64,000 bases of DNA, from positions 1,116,001 through 1,180,000 of the forward strand of contig NZ_CP010429.1 of assembly GCF_000974425.1 (NCBI RefSeq), read 5' to 3'. Of this stretch, positions 1 through 18,044 are shown one piece after another (position 1 is the stretch's first letter; each line of letters begins with the position of its first letter). The notes below the pieces were generated by a model, which was given only the letters and a program-made list of their open reading frames with translations, ran no database searches and was not told the DNA's origin. The position numbers and the translations under genes are program-made. The DNA comes from Spirosoma radiotolerans. GTDB taxonomy: Bacteria; Bacteroidota; Bacteroidia; Cytophagales; Spirosomataceae.

Positions 1-1906
1 GGTATTCGCCCGTGTTGAGATTGATGGCGTTCAGCGTGCCCCAGGGTGGTTTAATGGCCGGGTAGTTGTCCTGGTCCCGAAACTGGGTGTTGCCGTTGTT
101 CAGGTAGGGGGGCATGTACGGAAAATCTTCCCCCTCGGTCGTGGGCGTGTTCACCACTGAACTGTGCTGATCGTTGGATGCGACGGCGGGTTTGGTGTCG
201 AGCTTGAACAGGTACCGGATAATGGCCTCCCGGTCGTCGGCGGTAAGGTGTCCGAACGAAGGCATCCGGCCCCGTCCCGTTACCAGAATAGAGGCTACCT
301 GTTCTTTCGTCAGCCGTTTGTCAACGTCAGTCAGGTTAGGGTAGGCCTGAGCGGTCTGGTTACCCGCTCCCGCTTTTTCGCCCGCAGCGTGGCAGACGGC
401 ACAGTTGGTATTGAACAGGGTTTGGCCGCGCGTGAGGGCTACGCCACCAGCCTGCGCCCGAACGTCGCGCATTTTGAGCCACCAGAGCATGGTGTTGGCA
501 TTCTGGTACAAAATGCCATCAGGGTCGGCGGCATTGCCACCCCACTCGGCCCCGCCACCGAAACCGTATAACAAGGTGCCTTCAAGGTTGGGCGGCATGT
601 ATTTACTGCCGTGCCGGCTGTTTTTGTAGCGATCGAGTACATACGCATGGGCTTCGGGCGTCCGGGTCGTGATTTCACTCTCCGTCAACTCCTGCCGGAC
701 AAATGGTGCTGGTTTTGTTGGAACGGGCTGGGTAGGCCAGGGCTGTTCGCCGGGTAAGGCGGGCGAAGTAGGTACCCGTACTTCGTTTACCGGAAAAAGG
801 GGTTTGCCAGTATCCCGGTCGAAGACAAATACATAGCCATCTTTGGTGGCCTGCGCCACCGCATCTACCATCTTTCCGTTGTGTTTGACCGTAATCAGAT
901 TGGGTGGGCAGGGCAGGTCACGGTCCCACAGGTCGTGGTGCACCGTCTGGAAATGCCAGATTCGTTTGCCGGTTGTTGCATTCAGGGCAATGACGCAATT
1001 GGCGAAGAGGTTCTGCCCTGGGCGGGCTCCGCCATAAAAGTCGACGGAGGGCGATCCCGTACCGGCATACACAACGCCCCGCTTTTCATCGACTACCAGG
1101 CCGGCCCAGCAATTGGCTCCGCCTAATTTTCTGTACGAATCTTTGGCCCAGGTTTCGTAGCCATACTCACCGGGAAGCGGAATGGTGTGAAATACCCATT
1201 CGAGCTTGCCGCTACGCACATTGAACGCCCGCAGATAGCCTGGAGGAGCATCGCCCCCTTCGTTGACGGCCGAACCGGTAATCAGTAAATCTTTGTAAAT
1301 AACGCCGGGGGTCGTGACCCGGATTGACAGGTTGGCTACCTCATGGCCAAGAGTTTCCCTGTCGCCAAGCCCTTCGTGCAGATCGACCGTTCCATTTTTG
1401 CCAAAACTCTCCACCAGCTTTCCCGTTGTGGCATTGACTGCATACAGAAACGAGCCTACTGTATACAGAATCCGTTTATCCTGGCCATCTTCCCAGTACA
1501 TGACCCCGCGAACCGGATGGAACCGGGGCTTTTTTTCGGGATCGGCGAAGGGGTCAAATTGCCAGTGTTGCTTTCCTGTGGCGGCATCAATGGCAAACAG
1601 TTTTAGCCTTGGCGACGTACCATAGAGCACCCCTTTTATAACGATGGGCTGGCACTGGATGTCCATACCCCGCTGACCACTGGCCTTGTTGTCGCCGGTA
1701 TCATAGCTCCAGGCGAGGGTCAGATTTTTTACCGTCTGGGTGTTGATTTGAGACAAAGGTGAGTAGCGATTTCCGGCAGCATTGCCGCCATAAGTCGGCC
1801 AGTCGTTGTTCGGTGGGGACTGTTTTATGGATGGCTTGTCTTCATTCAAGGAGAGGTAACTTCCCAGAATCAATAGGCCGAATAAGGATTTCAGGACAAA
1901 ATTCAT
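1..1906 (-). CDS. PQQ-dependent dehydrogenase with inserted cytochrome c domain (3' end outside window)
   Basis: The reading frame opens at ATG 1906-1904 and runs off the left edge with about 635 codons visible. The first ~20 residues are a hydrophobic export signal (MNFVLKSLFGLLILGSYLSL). The mature part begins with a DWPTYGGNAAGNRYSPL motif typical of quinoprotein glucose/alcohol dehydrogenase beta-propellers, and PQQ-type repeats such as FAIDAATGKQHW follow. A CAVCH heme c motif sits at 389-403 (about residues 502-506), inside the propeller rather than at its end. After it the propeller resumes (WGTLNAINLNTGEY). Enzymes of this family oxidise aldoses or alcohols in the periplasm and pass electrons to the respiratory chain. 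Downstream of the SusCD and dehydratase genes, it could make aldonates for them. The substrate is not determined. Confidence 0.88.
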   Translation of the reverse strand, partial: MNFVLKSLFGLLILGSYLSLNEDKPSIKQSPPNNDWPTYGGNAAGNRYSPLSQINTQTVKNLTLAWSYDTGDNKASGQRGMDIQCQPIVIKGVLYGTSPRLKLFAIDAATGKQHWQFDPFADPEKKPRFHPVRGVMYWEDGQDKRILYTVGSFLYAVNATTGKLVESFGKNGTVDLHEGLGDRETLGHEVANLSIRVTTPGVIYKDLLITGSAVNEGGDAPPGYLRAFNVRSGKLEWVFHTIPLPGEYGYETWAKDSYRKLGGANCWAGLVVDEKRGVVYAGTGSPSVDFYGGARPGQNLFANCVIALNATTGKRIWHFQTVHHDLWDRDLPCPPNLITVKHNGKMVDAVAQATKDGYVFVFDRDTGKPLFPVNEVRVPTSPALPGEQPWPTQPVPTKPAPFVRQELTESEITTRTPEAHAYVLDRYKNSRHGSKYMPPNLEGTLLYGFGGGAEWGGNAADPDGILYQNANTMLWWLKMRDVRAQAGGVALTRGQTLFNTNCAVCHAAGEKAGAGNQTAQAYPNLTDVDKRLTKEQVASILVTGRGRMPSFGHLTADDREAIIRYLFKLDTKPAVASNDQHSSVVNTPTTEGEDFPYMPPYLNNGNTQFRDQDNYPAIKPPWGTLNAINLNTGEY

Positions 1907-1946
1907 GGACTAGTTAGTCGGTTAAGAGTTCTAGAACAAAGGCGTT

Positions 1947-1962
1947 ATTTAAACGTTTGCAG
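1947..1962. promoter_or_regulatory. Possible LacI-type operator before the PQQ dehydrogenase gene
   Basis: ATTTAAACGTTTGCAG is an imperfect palindrome with a central CG, 41 bases upstream of the start at 1906. It resembles the operator-like sites elsewhere in this locus but has only 5 of 7 symmetric pairs, so it is weaker. Confidence 0.3.
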
Positions 1963-2080
1963 AAGCGTTTTTTGAGATTCTCTGGCATGTGGGCCGCCCC
2001 GCTTCGTCAGAATGACAGAAAATGCCGATTATGGCTCGTTCAGGCAAGTTTAAACGGAGTTCAATAGTACTTGATCCGCA

Positions 2081-3055
2081 TTACTTCGCTTTCTCATAAA
2101 ATTCATAGGTAATTTTCCAGGTCACTTCCTTGCCGGGAGGGGCCTCCAGCCGAATATAAGGTTCCGGGCAGGAGGTGGTGGCGCAGGCCCAGTAAACCAG
2201 CTTTTCCATGGGATGGTCACTGGTAATGTGGACGCCCGCCCCGGTCTTCTGGTTTTCGATACGGATGTCGTAATCGCTGGAAACGGGTTTGAATCCTTGC
2301 AAACCCGCACTATAGACCTGTTCTTTTTTTTCTAACTCCCGCGAATAAAATAGCCGGTTGCCCTCCGCCTGAATGGTGGTCCCGAATCCCTTACCCTCCG
2401 CTTTTACCTCGAATGGAAACTTAATGTTGACCGTGGGTCCAGTGGGTTGTTTGTCGATGATAAAGAAGTTGTGGTCATACACGCTTGTCTGGATGGGTTT
2501 GCTACCCGTGTTTTTGAGGCTATGCTCCAGCACCAGTTCAGGTTTGCCCTTGCTCAGTCGAACGGTTTTGGTGTACCGATACCCATAGCCGGTCGGATCG
2601 GTTAGTTCATGCGTAAAATTAATCTGGTCTTTGTGGCGTTTGACGGTCCATTTGCCGTGATCAGCTACCTCGAAATACTTCGCAAAAGAGTAGGCTTTAT
2701 CGTCTGGCTTGCGGAGCGACCCGACCCCAATCTTCACGAATGTATCACCGGGTTTGGCGTCTGCGTAGCCCAGTGGTGTAAACTCCTCGGCGGGCCCATT
2801 GATGGCATCGTGCATCTTGGGGTCGTAGGTGTCAAACCATTGATCAATAAAACTATGTCCTTTGTAGGTAAGATTCCCGAACGCACCCGCCCAGTCGAAC
2901 CGGGTGCCCTGATAGTACCCCTGCTGCTCATCCGGTAGGTATAGGGTCGTTTCAATAACGCCATTCGACAGTTCGGCCTGCGGCCATTCAGCCAGAGGCA
3001 TTGTTGCGGCACATAAGCCGAAAATAGCGGTTGTCAGTACTATTGCCTTTTTCAA
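2081..3055 (-). CDS. Secreted mutarotase-like (aldose epimerase fold) protein
   Basis: This is a 324-residue protein with a TTG start at 3055; the signal peptide MKKAIVLTTAIFGLCAA begins exactly there. The body is beta-rich, with patterns such as GYGYRYTKTVRLSKGKP, a 'lvlEHSLKNTGSKPI' strand pair and a conserved VYDHNFF segment, all typical of galactose-mutarotase-like sandwich domains that bind sugars. No catalytic assignment can be made with certainty. It lies downstream of the first SusD gene, separated from it by a strong 15-bp hairpin (3074-3106), and upstream of the PQQ dehydrogenase. A role in interconverting sugar anomers before oxidation would fit, but that is inference. Confidence 0.65.
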   Translation of the reverse strand: MKKAIVLTTAIFGLCAATMPLAEWPQAELSNGVIETTLYLPDEQQGYYQGTRFDWAGAFGNLTYKGHSFIDQWFDTYDPKMHDAINGPAEEFTPLGYADAKPGDTFVKIGVGSLRKPDDKAYSFAKYFEVADHGKWTVKRHKDQINFTHELTDPTGYGYRYTKTVRLSKGKPELVLEHSLKNTGSKPIQTSVYDHNFFIIDKQPTGPTVNIKFPFEVKAEGKGFGTTIQAEGNRLFYSRELEKKEQVYSAGLQGFKPVSSDYDIRIENQKTGAGVHITSDHPMEKLVYWACATTSCPEPYIRLEAPPGKEVTWKITYEFYEKAK

Positions 3056-3121: not shown

Positions 3122-4594
3122 CTACAAATTTGGGTTAATTGACGTATCGGTGTACGGCAACGGGAACCAATAATTTGCCTTGGTAATTGGCTTGATTGGT
3201 TGCAGATCTTCAGGACTTTTGGCCGCATTGGCAGCTTCTACTTGCTCCAGCCGAATCAGGTCAAACCACCGGGTCCGTTCGCAGGCAAACTCCCAGGCGC
3301 GTTCCTGTACCACGGCGTCGGCAAACTGAGCGGCCGTAAGGCCATCACCCGGTGCAAGTGCCTTGGTTCCCGCCGGCAAACCCCGCAGCCGAACCGCATT
3401 TAATGCATCATAGGCTGCCTGATCCGGTCCACCCGTACCGCGTGCTTTGGCCTCTGCATAGATGGTCAGTACGTGTGGGTAGCGCATCATGACAGATGGC
3501 AGCGAAATGCTGGACGTAACGACATTACCTTTGATGTACCATTTCTTGTAGTACGGATGTTTCGTCAGGCTTTGCTCCCAGGGAATGGTGGTAGCACCCA
3601 AGCCAAACTGCGTCCGGAAGGTAGCATCTTTACGGGGACCAGCGGGGAAGTTCTTAAAGAAATTGAGTTCGGCAAACATATCGTCCCAGCCCCCCTCTTC
3701 ACCCGGCATGGTTGTGTTGCCATACGTAGCGTTGGCCGTACCGCTGCCTCCCGTAAATCCACTGATCTGAAATACCGATTCCGGAATAATTGCCACGGCC
3801 GGATCGTTGTCGAAAACGGCGGCAAACGTTGGCATCAACGCAAAACCATACGCAGCGCGGTTGTCAATCACTTCCTTGGCTTTGGCCGCAGCCAGATCGT
3901 ATTTGTCGGTTTGCTTCAATGGCCAGCCCGCCATGGTCAGGTACACATCGGCCAGGAACGCTTTGGCCGCCCCCGCATTGGGCCGACCCGGATCGCGCCG
4001 GGTGTTGGGTAACAGGGTCTCCGCTTTCTTCAGATCCTCGACGATCAATGCATAGACCTCCGCTGGTGTCGATTTTTTGATGGTGAGTAGACTGGCCGAG
4101 TATTCACCCGCCAGAACCAGTGGGATATTGCCGTAAAAACGGGTTAACCAGTAGTAGGAAAAGCCACGAATGAAATAAGCCTCGCCCGCAATAATGTCGA
4201 TCGTTGCCTTGGTACCGGCCGTTTTCGTGTAATTGTTGATCACGTTGTTGGCGCCCTGAATGGCTTTGTAGCAACCCGTGTAGACAGCTCCTGAGCGCTG
4301 GTTTGTGGTCGATACGTTAAACTGGTCGAACTCGCGCCAGTCGGCTTTGTTACTGGCTGGGTGCGTCGTCACATCGTCGCTACCAATGGTTGCCGCATTG
4401 GCCGATGGGTGAAGGAATCCATAGGTCCACTGATTGCCCAGGCCCCGATAGGCTCCGGTCAGGGCCGACTCCAGACCGTCCTGAGTCGAGAGAACATTTC
4501 CGCCGTATAACAGCCCGGTCGTATCTTCTTCAAGGTAACCTTTGCAGCCTGCGGTGAGCAGGGCCGCCAAGCCAAGTATGACTAATTTTTTCAT
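3122..4594 (-). CDS. SusD/RagB-family outer-membrane lipoprotein (first pair)
   Basis: This 490-residue protein has a lipoprotein signal whose lipobox LTAGC places the lipidated cysteine at residue 17. The helical TPR-like SusD core follows, with signatures such as GEAYFIRGFSYYWLTRFYGNIPLVL, a PNAGAAKAFLADVYLTMAGWP repeat region and the C-terminal WEFACERTRWFDLIRLEQ motif typical of RagB/SusD. It sits on the cell surface as the ligand-capturing lid of the SusC channel encoded just upstream (4696-7686). The genes are about 100 bp apart and that gap holds a repeat element. Neighbouring sugar-acid enzymes suggest an oligosaccharide or uronate/aldonate ligand, though the ligand itself is not readable from sequence. 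Confidence 0.93.
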   Translation of the reverse strand: MKKLVILGLAALLTAGCKGYLEEDTTGLLYGGNVLSTQDGLESALTGAYRGLGNQWTYGFLHPSANAATIGSDDVTTHPASNKADWREFDQFNVSTTNQRSGAVYTGCYKAIQGANNVINNYTKTAGTKATIDIIAGEAYFIRGFSYYWLTRFYGNIPLVLAGEYSASLLTIKKSTPAEVYALIVEDLKKAETLLPNTRRDPGRPNAGAAKAFLADVYLTMAGWPLKQTDKYDLAAAKAKEVIDNRAAYGFALMPTFAAVFDNDPAVAIIPESVFQISGFTGGSGTANATYGNTTMPGEEGGWDDMFAELNFFKNFPAGPRKDATFRTQFGLGATTIPWEQSLTKHPYYKKWYIKGNVVTSSISLPSVMMRYPHVLTIYAEAKARGTGGPDQAAYDALNAVRLRGLPAGTKALAPGDGLTAAQFADAVVQERAWEFACERTRWFDLIRLEQVEAANAAKSPEDLQPIKPITKANYWFPLPYTDTSINPNL

Positions 4595-4695: not shown

Positions 4696-7686
4696 TTAAA
4701 AGCCCAGGTTTATACCGAGCGTATATTGTTTGGCATTTGGATAGGAACCGTAGTCAATACCGATGGCGGTATCGGTGTTCGAACCGACGCGGGCGGACTC
4801 TGGATCCGGGCCCTTGTATTTTGTGATCGTCAGCAGATTCGTTGCGCTGGCAAATACCCGGATATTCGCCTTGTTATGAATGAATCCAGTGGGTACGTTG
4901 TAGGAAAGGCTTACGTTTTTCAAACGAACGAAGCTGCCATTTTCCAGGAACCGGCTCGACTGGGTGAACGGCTGATATGTTTTCGTAAACGCCGGAACGT
5001 CCGATGTTTCATTACCGGGCCGGTAGTAATCCCGAATCTCCGACAGAATGAATTGCCGCGCATCGCCCGAGCCTGACAGGGCTGCTGCCCGAGTATAGTT
5101 GAGCTTATCGACACCAAATACACCGTTGAAGAATACATTCAGGGTCAGTCCTTTATACGTAAATGTGTTGTTCCAGCCACCCGTTGCTTTCGGAAATGCC
5201 CGGCCTATAATCTGAAAGTCATCCGTTGTGATCGAATTGTCGCCGTTGAGATCCTGATAATGTGGATCGCCTGGTACACGACCCTGCTTGGCTGCTGCAT
5301 CGGCTTCGTTTGGTTTCCAGGTTCCCAAATACTTCAGGCCCCAATACGAACCCAGTGGCTCGCCTGGTATCAGCATAAATTCATTCGTGGTCGACATGCC
5401 ACCCCCAACGCCCGTACCCTGTCCCAGCCGGGGCAGCCCACCCAGACTGAGTACTTTGTTCTGTAAAGTAGACAGGTTCAGATTCGTCTCCCAGCGGAAA
5501 CTTCCCGCTACCAAAGGTGTACCGCCGATTGAAAACTCAAAGCCTTTGTTCTCAACCTCACCCACATTTCGGGCCTGGGTACCACCACCGGCATAGCTCG
5601 GAATGGCTACGTTCAGGAGAAGGTCGGTCGTGTTCTTCTTAAAATAATCAGCTTCAATATGCAGCCGTCCGTTCAGAAATTCCATTTCAAGGCCTACGTC
5701 CACCTGCTTGGTTGTTTCCCACTTGAGGTCTGGATTGCCGGGGTTGCCCAAAATAACCCCCGAGGTGGCAGCCGTGTTGTTGAACGCGACCTGGGCTGAG
5801 CTATAGGACGATATCGTCGAGTAAGGACCAAGGGCCTGGCTGCCGGTCATCCCCCAGCTTCCCCGCAGTTTGAGGTTGCTGAATACGTTGAGTTTCTTGA
5901 TAAACTCTTCCTCCGATAAACGCCACCCAAGCGCTACGGATGGGAAAACACTATACTGGTTGCCCGCTGCAAACTTGGATGATCCATCCCGACGGACGGC
6001 CGCTGATACCAGATATTTGTCTTTGTATCCATAGTTGATACGTCCCAGCAACGACAGCAGGGTCCATTTCTGATAACTCGACGCTACGGTAGCGGCTGTA
6101 TTCCCGCCGATGTTGTCATAGCCCAATTGCGGAAACCGTAGTCCTGATGCACTGGCGGTAAAGTCTCTACTAGTGAATTGCTGTGTTTCCAGAACGGCAA
6201 CGGCGTTAATGGAGTGATTGCCTATTTTGACGTCGTAATTCAGATTATTCGTGTTTTGAAGGGTCACCTGCTCGGCCGAATACCGGCTTGCGGTCGGTAC
6301 GTTGTTCGAGAGTCGCTTGCCGTTTAAGTTCAGGTTTTGCAAATTCAGGTAATTGACGGCGTACTGTAAATCGAGCGAAAGCCCTTTGATGGGGAGCTTA
6401 TAGTTCACCCCACCATTGATGTTGATACCGCTCTTGTTGGCATCGACTGACTGATCGTACAGATAATCCAGCGGATTGCGGTAAACGGAACCAATCGGGT
6501 CCGTAAACGTCGGCTGGCCATCGGCACCATAAGCAGGCGTGGTGGGTGCCCAGGCCAGTGCCTGAACGATGGCGCCACCGTCGAGCGTGTTGTGATTTTG
6601 TGACCGTGTAGCCCACAGATTCAGCCGAAACGAAAGTTTGTCATTGATCTGCGTATTTATGTTGGTCCGCAGGTTATACCGCTTAAACCCGCTGTTGTTG
6701 ACGATACCATTTTGATTTAAATAGTTTCCCGACACCAGAAAGGTCGTTTTGTCGCTACCACCCGACAGCGTAATTTGGTGTTGTTGACCAGATCCATTAC
6801 GGAATACCAGGCTCTGCCAGTCGGTGCCGCCATTTTGTTTGAACTGCGCGATCTGATCGGCCGTAAAGGGCAGATTGGAGCCCGTAGCGGTGGCGCGGGC
6901 ATTGACGATTTCGGCAAATTCTCCGGCCGGTAATACGTCGTATTTTTTGATGACTTCCGACGTACTGAACTGACCTTCGTAGTTGACTTTAAGGCCTTTA
7001 GAACCTTTTTTGGTCGTAATGATCACCACGCCATTGGCACCGCGACTACCATAAATGGAGGTCGATGCGGCATCTTTCAGGATCTGAATGGTCTCAATAT
7101 CGCTTGGGTTAACAAAGTTAAAATCAGCGCCAACGAACCCATCGACCACGTACAGCGGGTTGTTATTGCCCAAAACGGAGTTCGCTCCTCTGATCCGAAT
7201 CCTGGCATCGCCACCAGGAGCTCCATTCGTCTGGCTTACCTGCACACCTGCAGCGCGTCCCTGCAGCACCTGATCCAGTCGGGTAACCGGCTGCTGGGCA
7301 AATTCCTTGGTGGAAATGGCCGTCAGCGCACCCGTTACGTCGGTTTTGCGTTGGGTACCGTACCCAACGACAACTACCTCGTTCAATGTTTTCTGGTCCT
7401 CCGCTAACTGAATCGTAACAACGGAGCGACCATTAATAGGCACTGTCTGGCTTATATAGCCGATATTCGAAAAGACCAGCGAGCCATTACCCGGCGCATT
7501 CAGCGTGAAATTGCCAGATGCATCGGTAGCGGTACCCACCGTTGTACCGCTAACCTGAACATTGACGCCCGGCAACCCCTGATTGTCGGGGCCGGTCACC
7601 GTACCCGTCACTCTGGCATTCTGAGCGAAGGCGTAGCCTTGGCACAGCAGCAGCAGCAGGAAGAGATAGTTTACATGTTTTTTCAT
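4696..7686 (-). CDS. SusC/RagA-family TonB-dependent transporter (first pair)
   Basis: This 996-residue outer-membrane protein has a signal peptide (about residues 1-21), then an N-terminal carboxypeptidase-regulatory-like domain (VTGTVTGPDNQGLPGVNVQV, to about residue 95), the EVVVVGYGTQRK TonB-box region, a plug domain with the signature IRIRGANSVLGNNNPLYVVD and ILKDAASTSIYGSRGANGV, and a long beta-barrel ending in GINLGF with a terminal aromatic. It imports the ligand captured by the SusD partner, energised by TonB. It begins 82 bp downstream of the galactonate dehydratase-like gene and is probably co-transcribed with it. The length is normal for SusC-like proteins. Confidence 0.95.
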   Translation of the reverse strand: MKKHVNYLFLLLLLCQGYAFAQNARVTGTVTGPDNQGLPGVNVQVSGTTVGTATDASGNFTLNAPGNGSLVFSNIGYISQTVPINGRSVVTIQLAEDQKTLNEVVVVGYGTQRKTDVTGALTAISTKEFAQQPVTRLDQVLQGRAAGVQVSQTNGAPGGDARIRIRGANSVLGNNNPLYVVDGFVGADFNFVNPSDIETIQILKDAASTSIYGSRGANGVVIITTKKGSKGLKVNYEGQFSTSEVIKKYDVLPAGEFAEIVNARATATGSNLPFTADQIAQFKQNGGTDWQSLVFRNGSGQQHQITLSGGSDKTTFLVSGNYLNQNGIVNNSGFKRYNLRTNINTQINDKLSFRLNLWATRSQNHNTLDGGAIVQALAWAPTTPAYGADGQPTFTDPIGSVYRNPLDYLYDQSVDANKSGININGGVNYKLPIKGLSLDLQYAVNYLNLQNLNLNGKRLSNNVPTASRYSAEQVTLQNTNNLNYDVKIGNHSINAVAVLETQQFTSRDFTASASGLRFPQLGYDNIGGNTAATVASSYQKWTLLSLLGRINYGYKDKYLVSAAVRRDGSSKFAAGNQYSVFPSVALGWRLSEEEFIKKLNVFSNLKLRGSWGMTGSQALGPYSTISSYSSAQVAFNNTAATSGVILGNPGNPDLKWETTKQVDVGLEMEFLNGRLHIEADYFKKNTTDLLLNVAIPSYAGGGTQARNVGEVENKGFEFSIGGTPLVAGSFRWETNLNLSTLQNKVLSLGGLPRLGQGTGVGGGMSTTNEFMLIPGEPLGSYWGLKYLGTWKPNEADAAAKQGRVPGDPHYQDLNGDNSITTDDFQIIGRAFPKATGGWNNTFTYKGLTLNVFFNGVFGVDKLNYTRAAALSGSGDARQFILSEIRDYYRPGNETSDVPAFTKTYQPFTQSSRFLENGSFVRLKNVSLSYNVPTGFIHNKANIRVFASATNLLTITKYKGPDPESARVGSNTDTAIGIDYGSYPNAKQYTLGINLGF

Positions 7687-7768: not shown

Positions 7769-9016
7769 TTACCAGTCGACTACGGAACCGTCGAGGGCGT
7801 TATATGACTCGGGGTTTTTCCAATCGTGGCCGATCTTGTCTTTCATCTTGTCTTCATCCAGTTCGACACCCAAGCCTGGCCCTTGCGGAATCATCACGGT
7901 GCCGTCTTTTTGCAGTTTGAAGGGGTTCTTTAAATACCCTTCGCCTAGGGAGACCTGCTCCTGTACCAGAAAATTGGGTATACTGGCTGCCAGATTAAGG
8001 CCAACGGCGAGGGAGATTGGCCCCATTGGATTATGCGGGGCAACGGGCACGTAGTACGCTTCGGCCATGCCCGCAATCAGGCGGCCTTCGGTGATACCAC
8101 CCGCATGGCACAGGTCTGGTTGAACAATGCTGACGGCTTTCTTCTCCAGTAGTTCACGAAAGCCCCATTTGGTGAAAATGCGCTCTCCGGCCGCTATGGG
8201 TAGGTGGGTACCCCGAGCAATGTCAACCATCGTATCAACGTTCTGCGCCTGACACGGCTCCTCAACGAACATCGGTTGAAACGGCTCTAACTGCTTGATG
8301 AGTACTTTGGCCGTTTGGGGTGAAATATTTCCATGAAAGTCGATGGCAATGTCCATCTCAGGGCCACCAGCTTCCCTCAGGGAAGCGAAATTATCGACGG
8401 CATATTTGATGAATTGGGGGTTTTCGACAATGTTGGCCGGGTTCTTATGGGCAACGCCTGTTTTGATAACCGTATATCCTTCGGCCTTCCGTTTCTTGAT
8501 GTCTTCCGCATTGCTGGCCCGACCGTAAATCCGGACCCGGTCGCGGGTAGGACCACCCAGCAGCTCATAAACCGGCACATTCAGAAGCTTCCCTTTAATA
8601 TCCCACAAAGCATGGTCGATGCCACTCAATGCACTCGTTAAAATGGGACCGCCCCGATAAAAGGCGTGTCGATAAATCGCCTGCCAGTGGTGCACAACAT
8701 GCCGGGGGTCTTTACCGATCAGATACGGTTCTACTTCTTTAATCGCCGTCTGGATTGTTAGCGCCCGACCCTCGAGCAAGGGTTCGCCTAAACCGACGAC
8801 GCCCACATCGGTATGGATTTTAAGGAAAATCCAACGGGGCTTGACCAGGAAGGTTTCCAGTTTTGTAATCTTTACCTTACTATAATCGGCAAAGTGGCCT
8901 GGGCTAACTGCATACGACGATTTCGGTAACGCCATTACGCCCATACCCGTAACACCTAAAACGGACTGTATAGCCGCCCGCCGGGATATGCCGGTTTTTC
9001 TGTTCGATGATTTCAT
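7769..9016 (-). CDS. dgoD: Galactonate dehydratase-like enolase-superfamily enzyme, exported
   Basis: This 415-residue protein matches E. coli DgoD closely from memory (PRWIFLKIHTDVGVVGLGEP, FYRGGPILTSALSGIDHALW, KVLIKQLEPFQPMFVEEP, SIVQPDLCHAGGITE). The predicted metal ligands are D226 (in IDFHGN), E252 and E278 (AAGER), with acid/base candidates H228 and H328 (APHNP). DgoD dehydrates D-galactonate to 2-keto-3-deoxygalactonate. Unlike DgoD, this protein carries about 38 extra N-terminal residues with a twin-arginine pattern (GISRRAAIQSVLG) and a hydrophobic stretch ending SSYA, so export by Tat is likely. An operator-like palindrome lies 28 bp upstream of the start. Substrate could be another aldonate; family assignment is firm. 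Confidence 0.85.
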   Translation of the reverse strand: MKSSNRKTGISRRAAIQSVLGVTGMGVMALPKSSYAVSPGHFADYSKVKITKLETFLVKPRWIFLKIHTDVGVVGLGEPLLEGRALTIQTAIKEVEPYLIGKDPRHVVHHWQAIYRHAFYRGGPILTSALSGIDHALWDIKGKLLNVPVYELLGGPTRDRVRIYGRASNAEDIKKRKAEGYTVIKTGVAHKNPANIVENPQFIKYAVDNFASLREAGGPEMDIAIDFHGNISPQTAKVLIKQLEPFQPMFVEEPCQAQNVDTMVDIARGTHLPIAAGERIFTKWGFRELLEKKAVSIVQPDLCHAGGITEGRLIAGMAEAYYVPVAPHNPMGPISLAVGLNLAASIPNFLVQEQVSLGEGYLKNPFKLQKDGTVMIPQGPGLGVELDEDKMKDKIGHDWKNPESYNALDGSVVDW

Positions 9017-10652: not shown

Positions 10653-12191
10653 TTATAGTTTTTTGTCCCACCAGACCCGTGTATCCAGCGTATTAGGTCC
10701 CTGCCGTGTAATTGCTTCGTTCAGTTTTCCTGAGTTGACAACAATCTCACTATCAGGATAAGGCATACGTCGGATGAAGTCGCCTTTTACTTCGGAGCCG
10801 GGATAAGGGTTTTTCTTCAGCGCAGGGAAACCACTACGTCGAAAATTGGCGAATGCCTCGGTACCGTCCAGGAAAGAAGCGACCCAGTATTGGGTGTTGA
10901 TCTGATCCAGCGCCTTGGTGGCGTCCAGCGGGTGAGCGTCCAGATAGGCCTTAATACTCGCTTCTGGAATGGTTGAGCCGTACGACGCCATTTGCTCCAG
11001 ATTGGCCCGGATGCCTTTCGCATAATAGTCAGCAGGAGCGCCCGTCACCCAACCCCGAACGGCAGCTTCGGCGAGTAGGAACTGGGTTTGAGCATAGGTG
11101 AGATGGTACTCAGGCGCGTCCAGTTTCAGCACCGTGGTCAGATTTACCTGGGTGAAATCCCATAGGCTGACTACCTTGTTTTGCGCCAGAACCGTGTTGA
11201 TCGATACATCGTTGTAGCCCATCGGCATACCAATTTGCACCGCTGGATCCGATGAGGCCCGCGGGGCTACCTGTTCCTGACCACCTTTGGCCCCTACGTA
11301 GCGTACGGCAAAAATGGGCAGGCGGGGGTCATTATTTGCTTTCAAATAATCGACAAAAGGGGCCGCCAGGTAGAAATTGGTTTTTTCGCGAGCCTGCAAG
11401 TGATTGGCTATGTAATTGTTATAAATAGCTGTATGCCGCAGGGTTGAGTTGTCGGCATTGGATTGCAACACACCACCAGCCACGGCTTTTTTTACGTATG
11501 TTTCAGCCATCGCCGGATCAACCTTGGTTAGCCGCATGGCTGCCCGAAGCATAAAGGAGTACCCTAACTTTTTCCACTTCGCTACGTCGCCACCATATAA
11601 GATATCCGTAACAATTGGCGTTTGCGCGGTAGTTAGACCCGCTGAAGCTTCATCGAGTTCTTTTAACAGATCTTTGTAAATATCCTGTTGTGCGTCGTAT
11701 TTAGGGGTAATAATCTCCGTGGTATACCCCTGTCCTGCTTCAAAATAGGGAATATCTCCATACGTGTCGGTCAGAATCATAAATACGTAGGCTTTCCAGA
11801 TACGGGCTGCCTGGTAGGTGTTTACCTGCAACGGATCGCTCTTAGTTTGATCCAGTACCGCCACCAGTTGTTTGAGCACATTGCGGTAAAAATTCTGCCA
11901 TACCAAGGGCGTATTGCTACTATTGACCTGGTCATAATTGGCACCGGATAATGAGCTGCCATAGGGCGTAATGATCTGTTGCACAATGCCAAAGTTGTAG
12001 GTCAGCATACCCAGCGTGCCAAACCCATCGAGGTAGTTGGTGTTAATAATGGCCTTGTTAAGTACCATTGGAGCGGCCAGAGACGTTGGGTCTACCTTGT
12101 TTGTGTTTACCGTATCAAAGCCCTGATCACAGCCCATCAGCAGACTCAATGAGAGGACCAGCGTAAGTGTATAGTTTATATTTGGTTTCAT
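10653..12191 (-). CDS. SusD/RagB-family lipoprotein (second pair)
   Basis: This 512-residue lipoprotein has its lipidated cysteine at residue 21 (SLLMGC). The pattern matches the SusD-like group that binds glycans or small oligomers: an early FDTVNTNKVDPTSL segment, YGDIPYFEAGQGYTTEIITP, ILYGGDVAKWKKLGYSFMLRAAMR and a C-terminal NTLDTRVWWD motif. The same WW(D) ending occurs in the SusD at 29984-31447, so these two are closer relatives of each other than of the first SusD. It partners with the SusC encoded 91 bp upstream; the gap carries a family 1 repeat. It probably acts in the same uptake programme as the dehydratases beside it. Confidence 0.92.
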   Translation of the reverse strand: MKPNINYTLTLVLSLSLLMGCDQGFDTVNTNKVDPTSLAAPMVLNKAIINTNYLDGFGTLGMLTYNFGIVQQIITPYGSSLSGANYDQVNSSNTPLVWQNFYRNVLKQLVAVLDQTKSDPLQVNTYQAARIWKAYVFMILTDTYGDIPYFEAGQGYTTEIITPKYDAQQDIYKDLLKELDEASAGLTTAQTPIVTDILYGGDVAKWKKLGYSFMLRAAMRLTKVDPAMAETYVKKAVAGGVLQSNADNSTLRHTAIYNNYIANHLQAREKTNFYLAAPFVDYLKANNDPRLPIFAVRYVGAKGGQEQVAPRASSDPAVQIGMPMGYNDVSINTVLAQNKVVSLWDFTQVNLTTVLKLDAPEYHLTYAQTQFLLAEAAVRGWVTGAPADYYAKGIRANLEQMASYGSTIPEASIKAYLDAHPLDATKALDQINTQYWVASFLDGTEAFANFRRSGFPALKKNPYPGSEVKGDFIRRMPYPDSEIVVNSGKLNEAITRQGPNTLDTRVWWDKKL

Positions 12192-12282: not shown

Positions 12283-15200
12283 TCAAAATCGAACATTCAG
12301 GTTAAAGCCGATACTGCGGGTTGGGGGAAGCCCTGGCCAGAAGTCTAGCCCCACGCTGTTATCCGAGGAAACCAGCGCTTCTTCGGGATCCATGTTTTCG
12401 GTCCATTTCTTGATGATCAGAACGTTGTTGGCGACAGCATTCAGCCTTAATCCTTTAATGAACAGGTTCTGAGGAAGTAACTTGGTGAAGTCGTAGCCTA
12501 ACGTAATCTGCCGCAGTTTCCAGAAGCCGGCGTTGTTTACGAAATCTTCGTTGATACCCAGTGGATTAATGGATTCGTAGAAGGGCTGCACAGCCGCTTT
12601 AGTCGTGTTGATCTCTCCATTTGGATTCACTCCGTTGCCGATCACGTACCCTACATCCCGACCCGGTAACGTCCGTTTCGACAACCCGTGCCGCATGTAG
12701 TTGATGTTACGACCCGAAATCATTTTATGACCCAGTTTGAAGTCGATCAGAACCGAGAGGGATAAGCCCTTGTAGTTGAACGTGTTGGTAATACCGCCGA
12801 AGTAGGAGGGGAGGGCGTTCCCCACATCCACCAGCGTGTTGTTACGTAGCGGCATCCCACTATTTTGATCGAATACCTGCCGACCCTGCGCATCCCGCAA
12901 ATACTTGAAGGTGTACAACTGGCCGATGGGTTTGCCCACCACCTGATTCAGTACACGACCGCTGCCACCACTTACCGTAATGACGGTATCATTGGGCGAT
13001 AACCCCAGTTGTAGGACTTTGGACGTATTGTAAGAGGCATTGGCACTCACATCCCAGCGAAATGAAGGGGTAACCACGGGTGAAAACGTCAGCAACATCT
13101 CCAGCCCCTGATTCATACTCCGTCCAACGTTGATCAGCTTGCTGGTATACGACGAGGCATCGGAAATCTGAGCAGCCAGAATCTGGTCTTCAGTTGTTTT
13201 GTGGTAATAGGTAAAATCAAAGCCTACTTTGTTATTAAACAGCTTCAGTTCCAGACCAACTTCGGCTTCCTGGATACGTAGCGGACGCAGGTTTTTGTTC
13301 GGAACTTGCGAGGCATTTATGCCGCCCACCGGCACCAGTTGTCCCGACGGATTCGGGAACGAGTTGTTATCGACCTGATAATAGAGCGCGTTCGAATACG
13401 GATCTACGTTGTCTGACCCGACCTGCGCGTAAGCCGCCCGTAACTTCCCGAATGACAGCCAGGCGGGTAGCCCTTCAAACGCCTGCGAGAACACGAAGCT
13501 ACTGGTAACGGAGGGGTACAAAATACTGCGGTTAGACGGAGCCAGCGTCGAGAACCAGTCGTTTCGAGCCGTTGCGGTCAGGAACAGGAAATCCCGATAG
13601 GAGATGGTTGCCGCCCCAAACAAGGAGTTGATATTCTTCTCCGACAGCGCGTAGATGGGGTTTTTAATCCGGCCGTTGGCTACGGTGTACAGGCCTGGCT
13701 GTATAAAATCCTGTACCGTTACACTATTGTAGTCAATACGGGCGTACCGTGCGTTGCCACCCAGCGTTATATCCACACCGATTTTCCCAAATGTTTTGTT
13801 CGCTCCTAAAATGAAGTCAATGTTTCGTTCGGTGTTCTGGCGTACGTCCTGTGTATATGAACCGTTCACGTAGCCAACAGGAGCTTTGGCAATCGGCGCA
13901 TACCCATTCGGAATATTGTAATCCTGGTTTCTGATATAAAAGTCCTGAGCAATCCGTCCTTGCAGATATAGCCAGTCGGTAAACTGGTATTTGAGGGCAA
14001 CGTTGCCAAAAAGCCGGTCACGTTTGATATTCTCGAAGTGATGGCTCATGGAATAATACGGGTTGTTACGTACCAGAAAGCGCGCGATCGAAAGTTCATC
14101 CCCATTAGCGTACGTCTGATTGTCGCGCAGGGCCTGAAAAGGCATCGAATTGGCCAGTGTAAACACGACCGTCGATACCGAAAAATCCTGCGCGTTTACC
14201 TGTGGAGGATTGACGTTATTCTCCTTCGAGTAATTTATATTTCCCGATGCGGTTAGTTTGCTGTTAATGTTCTGGGTAAATCCCAGGTTAATCACTTTGC
14301 GGTTGAAGGTATTATTCTCCATAATCCCCCGGTTGTCGGTATTGCCAAACGACAGGCTGAAACCACCGTTGGTGCCGTTATTGGCTACGGTTACGGTATT
14401 GGTAAAGTTGGTGCCCACGCGGTAAAACTGCTTCACCCGATTGTAAACCGGTTCGTAAGGATAGGTTTTGTTGTCGAACAGGGTCTGCGTCATGCCCGGC
14501 TGAAACTTTTCGCCAAAACTCCACACGCCCGACGATGGGAAAGCTGTCGTTGGTCGTACACCGCCTTCGCCTTGTCCATATTCGTACTGAAAATCCGTGA
14601 AGTCCAGCGGTGTATCGGTTGTAAAATTGGCGTTATACGTCACGCCGAATCCTTTACCTGCCCCTCGGTTTTTGGTGGTAATCATCACCACGCCATCTTT
14701 GGCGCGCGAGCCGTACAGGGCCGCTGCGGTGCCTCCTTTCAGAACGGTCATCGTTTCAATATCATCGGGGTTGATGCTGCTTAACCCATCGCCCCCATCC
14801 GAACTGTTGACAGGAAGGCCTGTCGTGCTACGGGCGCTATAATCGCCACCGAGGGAGCTGTTCGTATTGTCGATCGGTACGCCATTCACAACGATGAGTG
14901 GGTTGTTCTGACCACTAAACGACGACTGCCCACGAATCCGAATCTTGGCTGTTCCAGCGGGCCCTGTTCCCATGGTGGTAATATTGACACCCGCCATTTT
15001 GCCCTGTAGACCACTCACAAAGTTGGGGGTGCGGTTGGTCGAGATCTGGTCCGCATTGACCGTCGCCGTAGCATAACCCAGTGTTTTAGCCTCTTTCTTG
15101 ATCCCAAGCGCCGTAACGACTACTTCGTTGATAGATTTAGCATCTTCGGCCAGCTGCACATTGATGATCGAGCGGTTATTGACTGGAACGGTCTGGCTCA

Positions 15201-15429
15201 CGTAACTGATGTAGGAGAAAATCAGCGAAGCGTTGGCAGGTGCATTGATGGTATAGTTTCCTGAGGCATCGGTCGCCGTTCCTACCGACGTACCACCCAC
15301 GACCACGTTGACACCGGGTAGGCCCTGGTTATCTGCGCCGGTTACTTTGCCGGTCACGCTGTTCGTTTGTGCGACTGTTAGGCCGCTACTTATCAGCAAA
15401 TAGAAGAGAAAGACTAGAGATTTTTTCAT
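12283..15429 (-). CDS. SusC/RagA-family TonB-dependent transporter (second pair)
   Basis: A TonB-dependent transporter of 1048 residues when started at MKKSLVFLFYLLISSG (15429). An upstream in-frame start would add nine residues before the signal peptide and is less likely. Domains in order: signal peptide, carboxypeptidase-regulatory-like domain (VTGKVTGADNQGLPGVNVVV), EVVVTALGIKKEAKTLGYA box typical of the longer SusC group, plug (IRIRGQSSFSGQNNPLIVVNG, VLKGGTAAALYGSRAKDGV), then the barrel, ending NLNVRF. It forms the channel for the SusD at 10653-12191. A 25-base palindrome and a second hairpin lie 47-104 bp upstream of the start. Confidence 0.94.
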   Translation of the reverse strand: MKKSLVFLFYLLISSGLTVAQTNSVTGKVTGADNQGLPGVNVVVGGTSVGTATDASGNYTINAPANASLIFSYISYVSQTVPVNNRSIINVQLAEDAKSINEVVVTALGIKKEAKTLGYATATVNADQISTNRTPNFVSGLQGKMAGVNITTMGTGPAGTAKIRIRGQSSFSGQNNPLIVVNGVPIDNTNSSLGGDYSARSTTGLPVNSSDGGDGLSSINPDDIETMTVLKGGTAAALYGSRAKDGVVMITTKNRGAGKGFGVTYNANFTTDTPLDFTDFQYEYGQGEGGVRPTTAFPSSGVWSFGEKFQPGMTQTLFDNKTYPYEPVYNRVKQFYRVGTNFTNTVTVANNGTNGGFSLSFGNTDNRGIMENNTFNRKVINLGFTQNINSKLTASGNINYSKENNVNPPQVNAQDFSVSTVVFTLANSMPFQALRDNQTYANGDELSIARFLVRNNPYYSMSHHFENIKRDRLFGNVALKYQFTDWLYLQGRIAQDFYIRNQDYNIPNGYAPIAKAPVGYVNGSYTQDVRQNTERNIDFILGANKTFGKIGVDITLGGNARYARIDYNSVTVQDFIQPGLYTVANGRIKNPIYALSEKNINSLFGAATISYRDFLFLTATARNDWFSTLAPSNRSILYPSVTSSFVFSQAFEGLPAWLSFGKLRAAYAQVGSDNVDPYSNALYYQVDNNSFPNPSGQLVPVGGINASQVPNKNLRPLRIQEAEVGLELKLFNNKVGFDFTYYHKTTEDQILAAQISDASSYTSKLINVGRSMNQGLEMLLTFSPVVTPSFRWDVSANASYNTSKVLQLGLSPNDTVITVSGGSGRVLNQVVGKPIGQLYTFKYLRDAQGRQVFDQNSGMPLRNNTLVDVGNALPSYFGGITNTFNYKGLSLSVLIDFKLGHKMISGRNINYMRHGLSKRTLPGRDVGYVIGNGVNPNGEINTTKAAVQPFYESINPLGINEDFVNNAGFWKLRQITLGYDFTKLLPQNLFIKGLRLNAVANNVLIIKKWTENMDPEEALVSSDNSVGLDFWPGLPPTRSIGFNLNVRF

Positions 15430-15475
15430 GTGGTTCAAAAGATTAAGGAAAGACAATTAGGTAATGTGGTCTGGT

Positions 15476-15653: not shown

Positions 15654-16895
15654 TTACCAGTTATGGATGGCGCCATCCGGGCTTTTCAAAACCGGGTGTG
15701 GGAACGGCGTTTTAGTCGTAACCTCCATCACGAATGTTGCTTTCTTCGGATCGAATTTGACACCTAATCCCGGTTCTGGATTGAGGTATAATTTGCCGTT
15801 TTTGAAATTGATGTAATCTTCATTAAAGTAGGCCGGGCGTTCGGGTTCGCCACCGCCCAGCTCCATCAGGCAGCGCGTAGGACTGCTAGAGCCGAGTACG
15901 TGCACCAGAGCGGCCGTCGACAGGGGGCCTGTAAAGTGGGGAATCATACCGGCATAGTGCGTCTCACAGAGAGCAGCTATCTTTTTAAATTCGCCAAGGC
16001 CGCCTGTGTTGGGTAATGTAATCCGCGTGTAGTCGATCAGGCGTTGCTCGATGAGTTCGTTAATGTCCCATCGATCACCAAATTGCTCGCCAACGGCAAT
16101 GGGCACGGTGGTCATCTGGCGAACCGTTTTGTAAACCGCCGGATTTTCGGACCGAACAATGTCCTCGACAAAATAAGGCTCCATGTTTTCGAGTGCCTTA
16201 CAAATCTTGATACCTTCCGTGGTATCAAATCGGGTATGTAAGTCGAGCGCCCATTTACCACCACCGCCCACGGCAGAGTCGATTCGTTTGCAGAATTCGA
16301 TGGTCTTTTTGGCATTGTCATAAAAATCGAAGGGTTCTTCGCCGTTGCCGCCCGTTGGCCCGATGCGATAGGCGCGTAAGCCTGCCTCGATACAATCGCG
16401 GGCGCGTTCTTCTTCTGTTTTAGCTTTGGAAGCCCGAAAGCCGGTGGCATAACATTCGACATATTCCCGGGTGGCTCCCCCCATTAATTCATAAACAGGA
16501 ACGCCCAGCGCTTTACCCTTCAAATCCCACAAGGCCATTTCCAGGGCACCGAGGGCGTGCAATTTTTCGCGGCCGGGCGGATAAAACATGCCTCGGTACA
16601 CGTTTTGCCAGATGTGCTCGATGCGGAACGGATTTTCGCCGATGATCATTTGGGCGCACTGTTCAAGCATATCTTTGGACCCGCCCTCGCCAATACCGAT
16701 CAGACCCGCATCTGTCTGAATTTCAACAATACCGCGTGCCTGGTTGAAAAGTGGTTTGTTATAACCGGGGGCACTGTAATACCTGATTTTAGTGATTTTA
16801 AGTTTAGGAACCGCCTGAGCCAGACCCATTGGCAGCCCGGCCCAGACCGCCGTTGAACCGACTAATGCAGACTTGAGAAAGTTTCTTCTTTCCAT
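15654..16895 (-). CDS. Mandelate racemase/muconate lactonizing-type enolase-superfamily enzyme, exported
   Basis: This 413-residue protein is the third enolase-superfamily enzyme of the locus. Predicted Mg ligands are D218 (ALDLHTRFD), E244 (YFVEDIV) and E270 (IAVGEQFG); H220 and H320 (IPHFTGP) are acid/base candidates. The family includes sugar-acid dehydratases, racemases and cycloisomerases, and I cannot place this one on a substrate. The N-terminus is a Tat-type signal: MERRNFLKSALVGS, a hydrophobic run, then AQA cleavage. It is the first gene after lacI, with a near-perfect operator-like palindrome 80 bp upstream of the start, so it is probably the most directly regulated gene of the cluster. 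Confidence 0.82.
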   Translation of the reverse strand: MERRNFLKSALVGSTAVWAGLPMGLAQAVPKLKITKIRYYSAPGYNKPLFNQARGIVEIQTDAGLIGIGEGGSKDMLEQCAQMIIGENPFRIEHIWQNVYRGMFYPPGREKLHALGALEMALWDLKGKALGVPVYELMGGATREYVECYATGFRASKAKTEEERARDCIEAGLRAYRIGPTGGNGEEPFDFYDNAKKTIEFCKRIDSAVGGGGKWALDLHTRFDTTEGIKICKALENMEPYFVEDIVRSENPAVYKTVRQMTTVPIAVGEQFGDRWDINELIEQRLIDYTRITLPNTGGLGEFKKIAALCETHYAGMIPHFTGPLSTAALVHVLGSSSPTRCLMELGGGEPERPAYFNEDYINFKNGKLYLNPEPGLGVKFDPKKATFVMEVTTKTPFPHPVLKSPDGAIHNW

Positions 16896-16897
16896 AA

Positions 16898-16958: not shown

Positions 16959-16974
16959 GTCAAATTCAGTTTCC

Positions 16975-16992
16975 TGCTTAAACGATTAAGCA
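16975..16992. promoter_or_regulatory. LacI-type operator before the enolase gene
   Basis: TGCTTAAACGATTAAGCA is a palindrome with one broken pair. The symmetry extends two more bases each side (16973-16994), with a central CG. It sits between the end of lacI and the next gene, 80 bp before that gene's start, and shares its core with the sites at 9044 and 18118. Confidence 0.65.
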
Positions 16993-17003
16993 GGACGTCA
17001 AAA

Positions 17004-18044
17004 CTAAGCTTTCAGTGTTTTCTTTGTTTTTGACGACGCACGTTCAATTAATTCTGCCTGCATCAGTATCTGGGCGGGTTCGTCGGGCTTGTTTTTCAAT
17101 TTGTTTATCAAAAGTTCAACGGCTGTCTGGCCTAAATGCACAATGGGTTGTTTTAGGTAGGTAATGGGGCAATAATAAAGTTCAAAGACTTCAGCCTGTC
17201 CGAAACTAACGATGGCCAGCTCATCCGGAACCTTCAATCCCAGCTTATTGATGTATTTTAGTCCACTAACTGCCAGGCTGTAGGTAGCAAACAACAACGC
17301 GTCAATCGGCTGGTCGGATGAGAGCATTTCATCCAGTGCCCGTTTAACTCCGCTCTCAATATCATTGATCCGAACCTCTTTCAGCCAGGATGAATGGTGT
17401 GTTATGTTGTTATCCTGAAGTGCATCCCGATAGCCTCTTATCCGTTCCTTCATGTGAAAAAGCTGCGAATCGTAGGCAATCATGCCAATGTGCTTGTACT
17501 TATTGCGGACCAAATGTGTACCGGCGTCATACGATGCCTTGTAGTGATCAGTCGAAACGAAGTCCGTCGCTATTTCCGGGAAATACCTGTCCAGTAGCAC
17601 AAACGGAATATGCTTGTTCTTCAGGAGTTGAACTTGCTGGTCAGAATTTTCGGCCGATACAATGATAAATCCATCTACCTGCCGGTTGACCAGTACATCG
17701 ATTAAATCCTGTGACTTTTCTGCATTTTCGTCAGAACTACCAATAATGACCGTATATCCATATCGTTTGGCTTCATCTTCAACTACCCGGGCTATGTTTG
17801 CAAAAAATGGGTTCGATATATCGGCAATAATCAAGCCTATGGTATGCGTTTTTCCGCTACGTAAACTCTTTGCTAAATGGCTGGGCTGGTAGTTTAACTC
17901 CGAGGCTATCTGCTTAATCTTTAAAGCGATCTCCTGCCCGACCCGGCTCTCTTTCTCTTTTCCATTCAGCACATAAGACACCAACGCTGTAGAGACCCCC
18001 GCTTTCTGAGCTATATCTTTTATAGACACCTTCGTCTTACTCAT
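17004..18044 (-). CDS. LacI-family transcriptional regulator
   Basis: This 346-residue regulator has a classical LacI helix-turn-helix at residues 7-26 (IKDIAQKAGVSTALVSYVLN), a hinge helix region NYQPSHLAKSLRSGKT, then a periplasmic-binding-protein-like sensor domain beginning TIGLIIADISNPFFANI. LacI-family proteins usually repress catabolic genes until a sugar or sugar acid binds. The gene heads the whole minus-strand locus. Its own upstream region carries an operator-like palindrome abutting a TATATTTG promoter box, and related palindromes precede two dehydratase genes. Autoregulation and control of the locus are inferred from that. The inducer is probably a locus intermediate, but it cannot be named. 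Confidence 0.93.
   Translation of the reverse strand: MSKTKVSIKDIAQKAGVSTALVSYVLNGKEKESRVGQEIALKIKQIASELNYQPSHLAKSLRSGKTHTIGLIIADISNPFFANIARVVEDEAKRYGYTVIIGSSDENAEKSQDLIDVLVNRQVDGFIIVSAENSDQQVQLLKNKHIPFVLLDRYFPEIATDFVSTDHYKASYDAGTHLVRNKYKHIGMIAYDSQLFHMKERIRGYRDALQDNNITHHSSWLKEVRINDIESGVKRALDEMLSSDQPIDALLFATYSLAVSGLKYINKLGLKVPDELAIVSFGQAEVFELYYCPITYLKQPIVHLGQTAVELLINKLKNKPDEPAQILMQAELIERASSKTKKTLKA

Follow-up and report, generated by a model that had tools for sequence, protein, structure and literature searches.

A candidate De Ley-Doudoroff-type pathway split by the inner membrane in Spirosoma radiotolerans

We asked on which side of the inner membrane sugar acids are dehydrated by the products of a gene cluster of Spirosoma radiotolerans. 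The cluster lies at the left end of a window of 64,000 nucleotides (positions 1116001 to 1180000 of contig NZ_CP010429.1, the single contig of the 7.03-Mb genome). It encodes a LacI-family regulator, three enolase-superfamily proteins (E1, E2 and E3), two SusCD pairs, a secreted protein with a mutarotase-like fold and a dehydrogenase dependent on pyrroloquinoline quinone (PQQ), all on the minus strand according to open reading frames whose coordinates were checked. Gene content and order, leader motifs, active-site residues, an operator and conservation are read directly from the DNA. We propose that the cluster probably specifies an oxidative route of the De Ley-Doudoroff type that, unlike the usual cytoplasmic version, is shared between two compartments: oxidation and dehydration would be periplasmic and the resulting 2-keto-3-deoxy acid would be imported. 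A preliminary description of the window had already placed both reactions outside the cytoplasm. This placement has gained support from conserved twin-arginine translocation (Tat)-type leaders, a leaderless kinase and a leaderless aldolase encoded beside the PQQ dehydrogenase gene, an operator at the heads of genes, and leaderless counterparts of the galactonate dehydratase (DgoD); the substrates, the actual export and localisation of the enzymes, PQQ loading, the direction of transport, cotranscription and the inducer are predictions.

Tat-type dehydratases and their leaderless relatives

E1 (7769..9016), E2 (9198..10553) and E3 (15654..16895), all on the minus strand, each match the Pfam domains MR_MLE_N and MR_MLE_C. 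The nine metal ligands listed in the preliminary description (D226/E252/E278, D259/E285/E311 and D218/E244/E270) are present at those residues, and they are invariant in the relatives aligned at 60% identity or more and 80% coverage or more (79/79 for E1, 48/48 for E2 and 53/53 for E3, rows below these limits being left out); the three metal sites are thus intact as described. E1 scores 445 bits against a cut-off of 311 on the galactonate dehydratase model NF010624 and is the only protein of the genome above that cut-off; its closest rows among those compared are from Spirosoma. In the alignment with the nearest structure, the solved DgoD 3rr1, residues D226, H228, E252, E278, D301, H328 and E353 correspond, which we take to be the metal ligands and acid/base residues, and all seven are unchanged in 79/79 relatives. 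Model and residues together point to E1 being a galactonate dehydratase, with galactonate as its likely substrate.

The assignment of the two other enzymes is looser. On the mannonate dehydratase (ManD) equivalog NF043051, whose cut-off is 550, E2 reaches 403 and E3 203. Against solved structures, E2, a ManD-subgroup protein, scores about 460 bits with 3t6c, 4ihc and 3tw9, 375-398 with an intermediate set (3s47 to 3dfh) and 308-313 with 3vcn and 4e4f, which are named mannonate dehydratase. The 3tw9 group is presumably of the gluconate dehydratase type, although the structure search names no gluconate activity, and E2 is a candidate for this type. E3 is a distant ManD-like protein with a D-x-H-x-R signature and a best solved match of 157 bits. 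Such scores would also suit enolases that are epimerases or that act on other substrates, such as deoxy- or anhydro-sugar acids or uronates, in which case the name galactonate dehydratase would be an inherited annotation; misannotation in enzyme superfamilies is a studied problem (PMC2781113). We hold this explanation to be quite improbable, in view of the score of E1 on the galactonate dehydratase model, of its seven invariant positions matched in 3rr1 and of its clustering with the kinase DgoK.

SusCD genes, a PQQ dehydrogenase gene and a gene for an E2-like protein with a twin-arginine leader recur together at two further loci of the genome. One of them, L017, is an otherwise diverged SusCD-PQQ locus, whose PQQ dehydrogenase gene is 67% identical to that of the cluster; it holds a second E2 copy (L017:8720-10099) with 96.6% DNA identity to window 9198-10553, which suggests a recent duplication or gene conversion. 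The genome's third locus with SusCD, PQQ dehydrogenase and ManD-like genes (L018:9159-19999) also encodes a GDSL/TPR protein, and a GDSL protein is found in L017 as well.

The leaders of E1, E2 and E3 contain ISRRAAIQS, QSRRDTLKM and MERRNFLKS, respectively. In each case an uncharged stretch comes next and, as judged by eye, a possible S-x-A or A-x-A cleavage site. Conservation of these leaders was assessed with a motif-based test, which asked for an arginine pair within the first 45 residues and, no more than 9 residues further on, the beginning of an uncharged run of 13 residues or longer. Among relatives with at least 60% identity and at least 85% coverage, 73 of 78 E1, 44 of 47 E2 and all 53 E3 proteins passed (170/178 together). 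The eight misses are mostly frames that were apparently cut short or started too far upstream, and they were left uncorrected; three of them (L078, L099 and L100) have the arginine motif further in. At the level of the motif, the twin-arginine-type signal reported earlier for each enolase is therefore confirmed. Moreover, the alignment of E1 starts at residue 49 on the galactonate dehydratase model and at residue 48 on 3rr1, the preceding part being the leader, and the genome encodes TatC (161.8 bits against a cut-off of 132.7). The export of E1, E2 and E3 is, from these sequence features, very likely. No leader was seen by eye on the kinase and the aldolase that act after the dehydratases in the proposed route. 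If these two are cytoplasmic and E1-E3 periplasmic, the 2-keto-3-deoxy acid has to cross the inner membrane.

Twin-arginine leaders were also seen by eye at the start of 7 of the 12 'mandelate racemase/muconate lactonizing' proteins of the genome. Another usually cytoplasmic enzyme type bears one too: a SelA/DgaE-like pyridoxal phosphate enzyme, below the cut-offs, starts with MLSRRNLIKNL (L013:812-2035).

DgoD proteins without a leader exist in the same order. Among 118 genomes of the order, the source genome included, 11 have E1 matches at E up to 1e-100: five are at least 80% identical over residues 1-415, and the other six show 47-51% identity beginning at residue 42-48. In the five lower-identity loci that were read (L123-L127, genome G051 being left out), the E1-like part starts with MKIT or MKIR and is leaderless, its first residue matching residue 48 of E1, where the mature part of E1 begins. 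As in the Spirosoma cluster, the leaderless DgoD gene adjoins DgoK and aldolase genes in L123, L124 and L127. L124 has in addition an SMP-30 lactonase gene; L127 encodes a short-chain dehydrogenase/reductase and starts with a frame that by eye resembles SMP-30 lactonase. DgoK and aldolase were not found within the stretches read of L125 and L126, although the genome of L125 (G106) has a DGOK match elsewhere. Both kinds of DgoD, leader-bearing and leaderless, occur in Segetibacter (L067), and in a tree of 85 rows one branch with 100/100 support parts the five leaderless rows (L067 and L124-L127) from the 80 E1-type rows; this sample was drawn around E1, and so gives no date for the gain of the leader. 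A DGOK match is found in 5/5 genomes with E1 at 80% identity or more and in 10/113 others (Fisher p 1.7e-5, not corrected for kinship).

These observations bear on another alternative, that the leaders are non-functional and that the dehydratases remain in the cytoplasm, as parts of a De Ley-Doudoroff route of the ordinary kind that depends on imported aldonates. In its favour, export is predicted from motifs only, and the permease of the cluster resembles a galactonate transporter. The conservation of the twin arginines and the uncharged stretch in 170/178 relatives across the three enzymes, the existence of leaderless DgoDs in the same order and the presence of TatC nevertheless make it very improbable.

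Proposed sugar oxidation, import and cleavage

Where, then, are the later steps encoded? The preliminary description had found no 2-keto-3-deoxygluconate kinase, aldolase or transporter and concluded that these functions must be elsewhere. The first statement holds within the window only and the second does not: the cluster continues on the same strand past the PQQ dehydrogenase gene, and the downstream genes begin about 300 bases beyond the first base of the window. The search for them that it had proposed found, in the sequence to the left of the window (L013, whose positions minus 16000 give window positions), a kinase, DgoK (L013:14660-15709), an aldolase of the KDPG/KHG family (L013:14010-14663) and a permease of the major facilitator superfamily (MFS; L013:12471-13766) as the next genes of the minus strand. 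DgoK scores 206.6 bits on PF05035 (gathering score 25) and is the genome's only DGOK match, while the NCBIfam profiles gave no match to it at E up to 0.001. The aldolase passes TIGR01182 (176.7 against 156.05) and PF01081 (136.1 against 27.8). Kinase and aldolase genes overlap by 4 bases, and 243 bases separate the aldolase from the MFS gene. As listed, the frame of the kinase runs into the PQQ dehydrogenase gene; we consider an internal ATG at residue 16 the likelier start, which leaves a gap of about 22 bases instead. Because E1 is the sole DgoD above cut-off and DgoK the sole DGOK match, a DgoK route fed by a local DgoD must use the leader-bearing enzyme. The best NCBIfam family of the permease is the 'D-galactonate transporter' TIGR00893, with 239 bits, under the cut-off of 395.

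Genes for a 3-hydroxyacyl-CoA dehydrogenase-like protein and a membrane dipeptidase, located past the MFS gene, were dropped as members of the cluster: among the 53 full-length loci of relatives, none has the former near E1 and one has the latter. At two other places in the same genome (L014:8522-10821 and L016:9504-13226) an enolase with a twin-arginine leader is paired with RraA-like proteins of secreted look, and L014 has an MFS gene 51% identical to that of the cluster.

The PQQ dehydrogenase gene (1..1906, minus strand) runs past the window edge; a final stretch of about 313 bases is outside, and the complete protein has 739 residues. The PQQ dehydrogenase with heme c described previously is confirmed: the part within the window matches PF01011 with 513.6 bits against 26.7, and a cytochrome c sits inside the propeller sequence. 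The enzyme stays below the cut-offs of both NCBIfam models, with 472 against 832.65 on TIGR03074 (membrane glucose type) and 253 against 480.05 on TIGR03075 (alcohol type). It is thus nearer to the glucose-type model but without its N-terminal part, the best stretch beginning at position 148 of 783. The CxxCH heme site and an HHDxWD motif, the latter presumably the catalytic-Asp region of glucose dehydrogenase, are kept in 31/31 PQQ dehydrogenase sequences, the genome's own three included. Attachment of a c-type heme implies export, and the N-terminus is a hydrophobic stretch. The AlphaFold model has a mean pLDDT (predicted local distance difference test) of 72.7 and is weak near the heme insert; it resembles PQQ alcohol and methanol dehydrogenases in fold. 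We rate oxidation of an aldose by this enzyme as likely.

The secreted protein encoded next to it (2081..3055, minus strand, 324 residues) has a Sec-like leader by eye. It belongs to no Pfam family, and neither 15 homologues nor the other sequence searches gave anything significant. Its predicted fold (mean pLDDT 85.8) is closest to aldose 1-epimerases/GalM, which are the first eight neighbours with TM scores of 0.51-0.56, the periplasmic domains of YidC coming lower. Fold and leader agree with the mutarotase-like secreted protein of the preliminary description. We did not prefer an identity as lactonase, given these best neighbours, though the protein may have such a role. In two loci of relatives (L028 and L054), a DUF4380 protein adjoins E1.

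The proposed sequence of events is as follows. The two SusCD pairs, recognised by their TonB plug and SusD families in Pfam, would bring sugars into the periplasm: SusC1 (4696..7686) with SusD1 (3122..4594), and SusC2 (12283..15456) with SusD2 (10653..12191, SusD-like_2, 288.2 bits), SusC1 and SusC2 being TonB-dependent transporters and all four genes lying on the minus strand. The mutarotase-fold protein would interconvert the anomers. The exported PQQ dehydrogenase would oxidise the aldose (galactose, and probably glucose too) to the lactone or aldonate, and its heme c would hand the electrons on to the respiratory chain. Three dehydratases, exported in folded form by the Tat system, would then convert aldonates into periplasmic 2-keto-3-deoxy acids: E1 would use galactonate, E2 an acid of the gluconate or mannonate type, and E3 a third acid. 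Import of these acids by the MFS permease would follow and is the least certain step of all. In the cytoplasm, DgoK would phosphorylate them and the aldolase would split the product into pyruvate and glyceraldehyde 3-phosphate. Finally, the LacI regulator would repress the set through the operator described below.

A LacI-type operator at the gene heads

The regulator gene (17004..18044, minus strand) encodes 346 residues with the Pfam families LacI (50 bits) and Peripla_BP_1 (105.7); that it shares one strand with the two SusCD pairs, as noted earlier, agrees with the Pfam matches and the checked coordinates. We scanned the upstream regions for CG-centred palindromes, which yielded the 16-bp pattern GYTTAAWCGWTTAARC. 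With at most two mismatches and a central CG, the 64-kb window contains three copies, upstream of E1 (9044..9059, no mismatch), E3 (16976..16991, no mismatch) and LacI (18119..18134, one mismatch), whereas 20 first-order Markov sequences held 0.05 copies on average. The 12-base core with at most one mismatch gives four matches where 0.59 are expected, a number reached by 1 of 100 shuffles; the fourth match lies within SusC2 and is without the CG. In 80 relatives' loci (1.40 Mb) we found 94 sites, 90 of them upstream of SusC2 (38 sites in 20 loci), E3 (28 in 26), LacI (18 in 16) or E1 (6 in 6), the other four being elsewhere; these counts are partly circular, since the pattern came from the same regions. 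The operator is present in 41 of the 80 loci. It accompanies the LacI gene in 38 of 39 loci and occurs in 3 of the 41 loci lacking that gene, which ties it to this regulator.

In the genome as a whole, the operator occurs without mismatch at two places only, E1 and E3. Five sites have one mismatch: the one at LacI, two upstream of a LacI paralogue with 47% identity (L120:8856-10092), an intragenic one and one flanked by the ends of two genes. Cross-talk of the paralogue with the operator of the cluster is possible, but we do not claim a wider LacI regulon, as the sites with up to one mismatch outside the cluster are confined to the paralogue pair, the one within a gene and the one between gene ends.

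A TAnnTTTG box, presumably the Bacteroidota -7 element, is found within 45 nt after 30 of the 94 sites. In 26 of these 30 it starts 17 nt after the first base of the operator, that is, one base past its end, as against 15 of 1600 random positions. Within the window only the LacI copy of the operator is followed by such a box, TATATTTG, one base after its end. A scan for sigma-70 promoters and terminators gave no more than chance. E1 heads a run E1-SusC1-SusD1-mutarotase-PQQ-DgoK-aldolase in which the largest gap is 174 bases; if this run is cotranscribed, the PQQ dehydrogenase and kinase genes may share the control of E1. Upstream of the LacI operator, at window 18207-18306, lies an inverted repeat whose two 30-nt arms match perfectly and are 40 nt apart.

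Conservation of the set and comparison with known systems

We then asked how far the set travels as a unit. The loci of relatives are the best 80 of at least 575, and genes were counted, with an identity threshold for each, in the 53 loci that span 21 kb or more. Near E1 we found E3 in 47, E2 in 40, SusC2 in 39, SusD2 in 38, LacI in 37, DgoK in 35, aldolase in 34, PQQ dehydrogenase in 28, MFS and SusD1 in 24 each, SusC1 in 23 and the mutarotase-fold protein in 13. These are lower bounds, because the 10-kb flanks cut off more distant members. PQQ dehydrogenase, DgoK and aldolase genes occur together in 27 of the 53 loci.

These counts allow another origin of the acids to be weighed, namely the uptake of ready-made environmental sugar acids (aldonates or aldobionates made by other microbes) and their periplasmic dehydration, the PQQ enzyme being an accessory for other sugars. 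The absence of the PQQ gene near E1 in 25/53 loci fits this idea, and so do two groups of relatives: all six Larkinella loci are without PQQ and E2 but keep E1, E3, DgoK, aldolase and MFS, and seven Cyclobacterium loci have the order E3-E1-E2 (with SusC2/SusD2 in two cases), PQQ, DgoK and aldolase genes being missing from their flanks. Conversely, 27 of the 28 full-length loci with the PQQ gene also have DgoK and aldolase, the PQQ and DgoK genes are immediate neighbours in Spirosoma, and PQQ, E2-like and SusCD genes recur together at two other loci of its genome. We therefore regard the uptake of ready-made acids as unlikely for this cluster.

The split oxidative pathway, which we favour, must itself be held against several findings. 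The missing PQQ genes and the Larkinella and Cyclobacterium exceptions count against a fixed pathway. The localisation of the dehydratases is predicted from leaders judged by motif, the PQQ enzyme, which stays under both NCBIfam cut-offs, could have another alcohol as its substrate, and the MFS protein, below its family cut-off, might import aldonates instead. The genome contains galK over cut-off, so that galactose has another route. Its best score on the pqqE profile is 59.7 bits against a cut-off of 381, although 14 control genomes were also below and no positive control was available; taken at face value, PQQ is imported or the enzyme idle. Searches for pqqC were negative in 61 and 14 genomes, but carry no weight because no control gave a signal. 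We think that the genome may rely on outside PQQ, as E. coli does. As for regulation, the genome has 33 operator matches with up to two mismatches and 30 for the reversed pattern used as control, so that two-mismatch sites outside the cluster are meaningless. Direct control of E1 through an operator of its own is likewise no general feature, since a site immediately upstream of E1 occurs in 6 relatives' loci only.

The galactose pathway of De Ley and Doudoroff, as passages of PMC5507952 describe it, proceeds by oxidation to galactonate, followed by a dehydratase, a kinase and an aldolase giving pyruvate and glyceraldehyde 3-phosphate; the cluster has the same order of steps and, for the last three, the same kinds of enzyme. 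Oxidase, dehydratase, kinase and aldolase are encoded together here, the substrate of the oxidase being predicted. In contrast to that pathway, oxidation would fall to a PQQ-heme c protein taken as exported. The dehydratase differs as well in having a Tat-type leader (by motif, in E1 and 73/78 relatives), which the kinase and the aldolase lack. Membrane PQQ glucose dehydrogenase, found in Pseudomonas and acetic acid bacteria, carries out direct oxidation in the periplasm, the aldonate being then imported and processed inside. It likewise oxidises the aldose outside the cytoplasm and delivers electrons to the respiratory chain. The cluster would differ by placing dehydration outside too, and its enzyme lacks the N-terminal part of TIGR03074 and has a cytochrome c in the propeller sequence. 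The carrageenan regulon of Zobellia (DauA-D) also includes a sugar-acid cycloisomerase, a 2-keto-3-deoxygalactonate kinase and an aldolase, in a polysaccharide utilisation locus, but its DauA uses NAD+/NADP+ and acts on anhydrogalactose, unlike the PQQ enzyme (passages of PMC5698469). The cycloisomerase, of structure 5olc, is an enolase-superfamily relative.

The term 'pqq-dependent' occurs 0 times in PMC5698469, as does 'pqq' in PMC5507952 and PMC6262041, and the passages of these three papers mention no exported dehydratase of this kind. Among the open-access literature matches listed, titles and abstract starts describe no exported galactonate, gluconate or mannonate dehydratase, most subscription papers and bioRxiv being outside this scope. 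The parts and the reaction sequence are known; what appears to be new is the predicted dehydration outside the cytoplasm by a set of Tat-type enolases under one regulator.

Tat-type leaders extend to distant sources. Loci L095-L102, with 67-73% identity, include Planctomycetota, Acidobacteriota, Verrucomicrobiota and Omnitrophota among their sources; five pass the leader test and L097, L099 and L100 fail. Beside E1 they have a KDPG-family aldolase in L096 and a PfkB kinase in L102. We tentatively suggest that extracytoplasmic sugar-acid dehydration may be a widespread, overlooked catabolism in Bacteroidota and other phyla, in which sets of Tat-exported enolases (six of them in arrays of some Sphingobacteriales, along with a UxuA of Tat type and an RraA-like aldolase that is secreted) make a few periplasmic 2-keto-3-deoxy acids from many sugar acids. 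In some loci these would even be cleaved there, and the PQQ branch would be fed by the cofactor of neighbours. If so, the dehydration of sugar acids would not be confined to the cytoplasm, one permease could serve several acids and carbon would be committed before import. The electrons of the first step would go straight to respiration, and PQQ would be a shared good for bacteria unable to make it. The 'mandelate racemase/muconate lactonizing' proteins with leaders that environmental Bacteroidota encode would also gain a function.

The Sphingobacteriales loci L061 (3935-15057) and L059 hold arrays of six enolase-superfamily proteins with a UxuA-family and an RraA-like protein; in L061, twin-arginine leaders are visible on five of the six enolases and on the UxuA-family protein, and a leader is seen by eye on the RraA-like protein. 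In these arrays dehydration and cleavage are possibly both outside the cytoplasm. Elsewhere in the window, positions 22017-25256 encode a protein of 1079 residues that combines a GDSL-like stretch (below cut-off), DUF7133, HEAT repeats and a cytochrome c.

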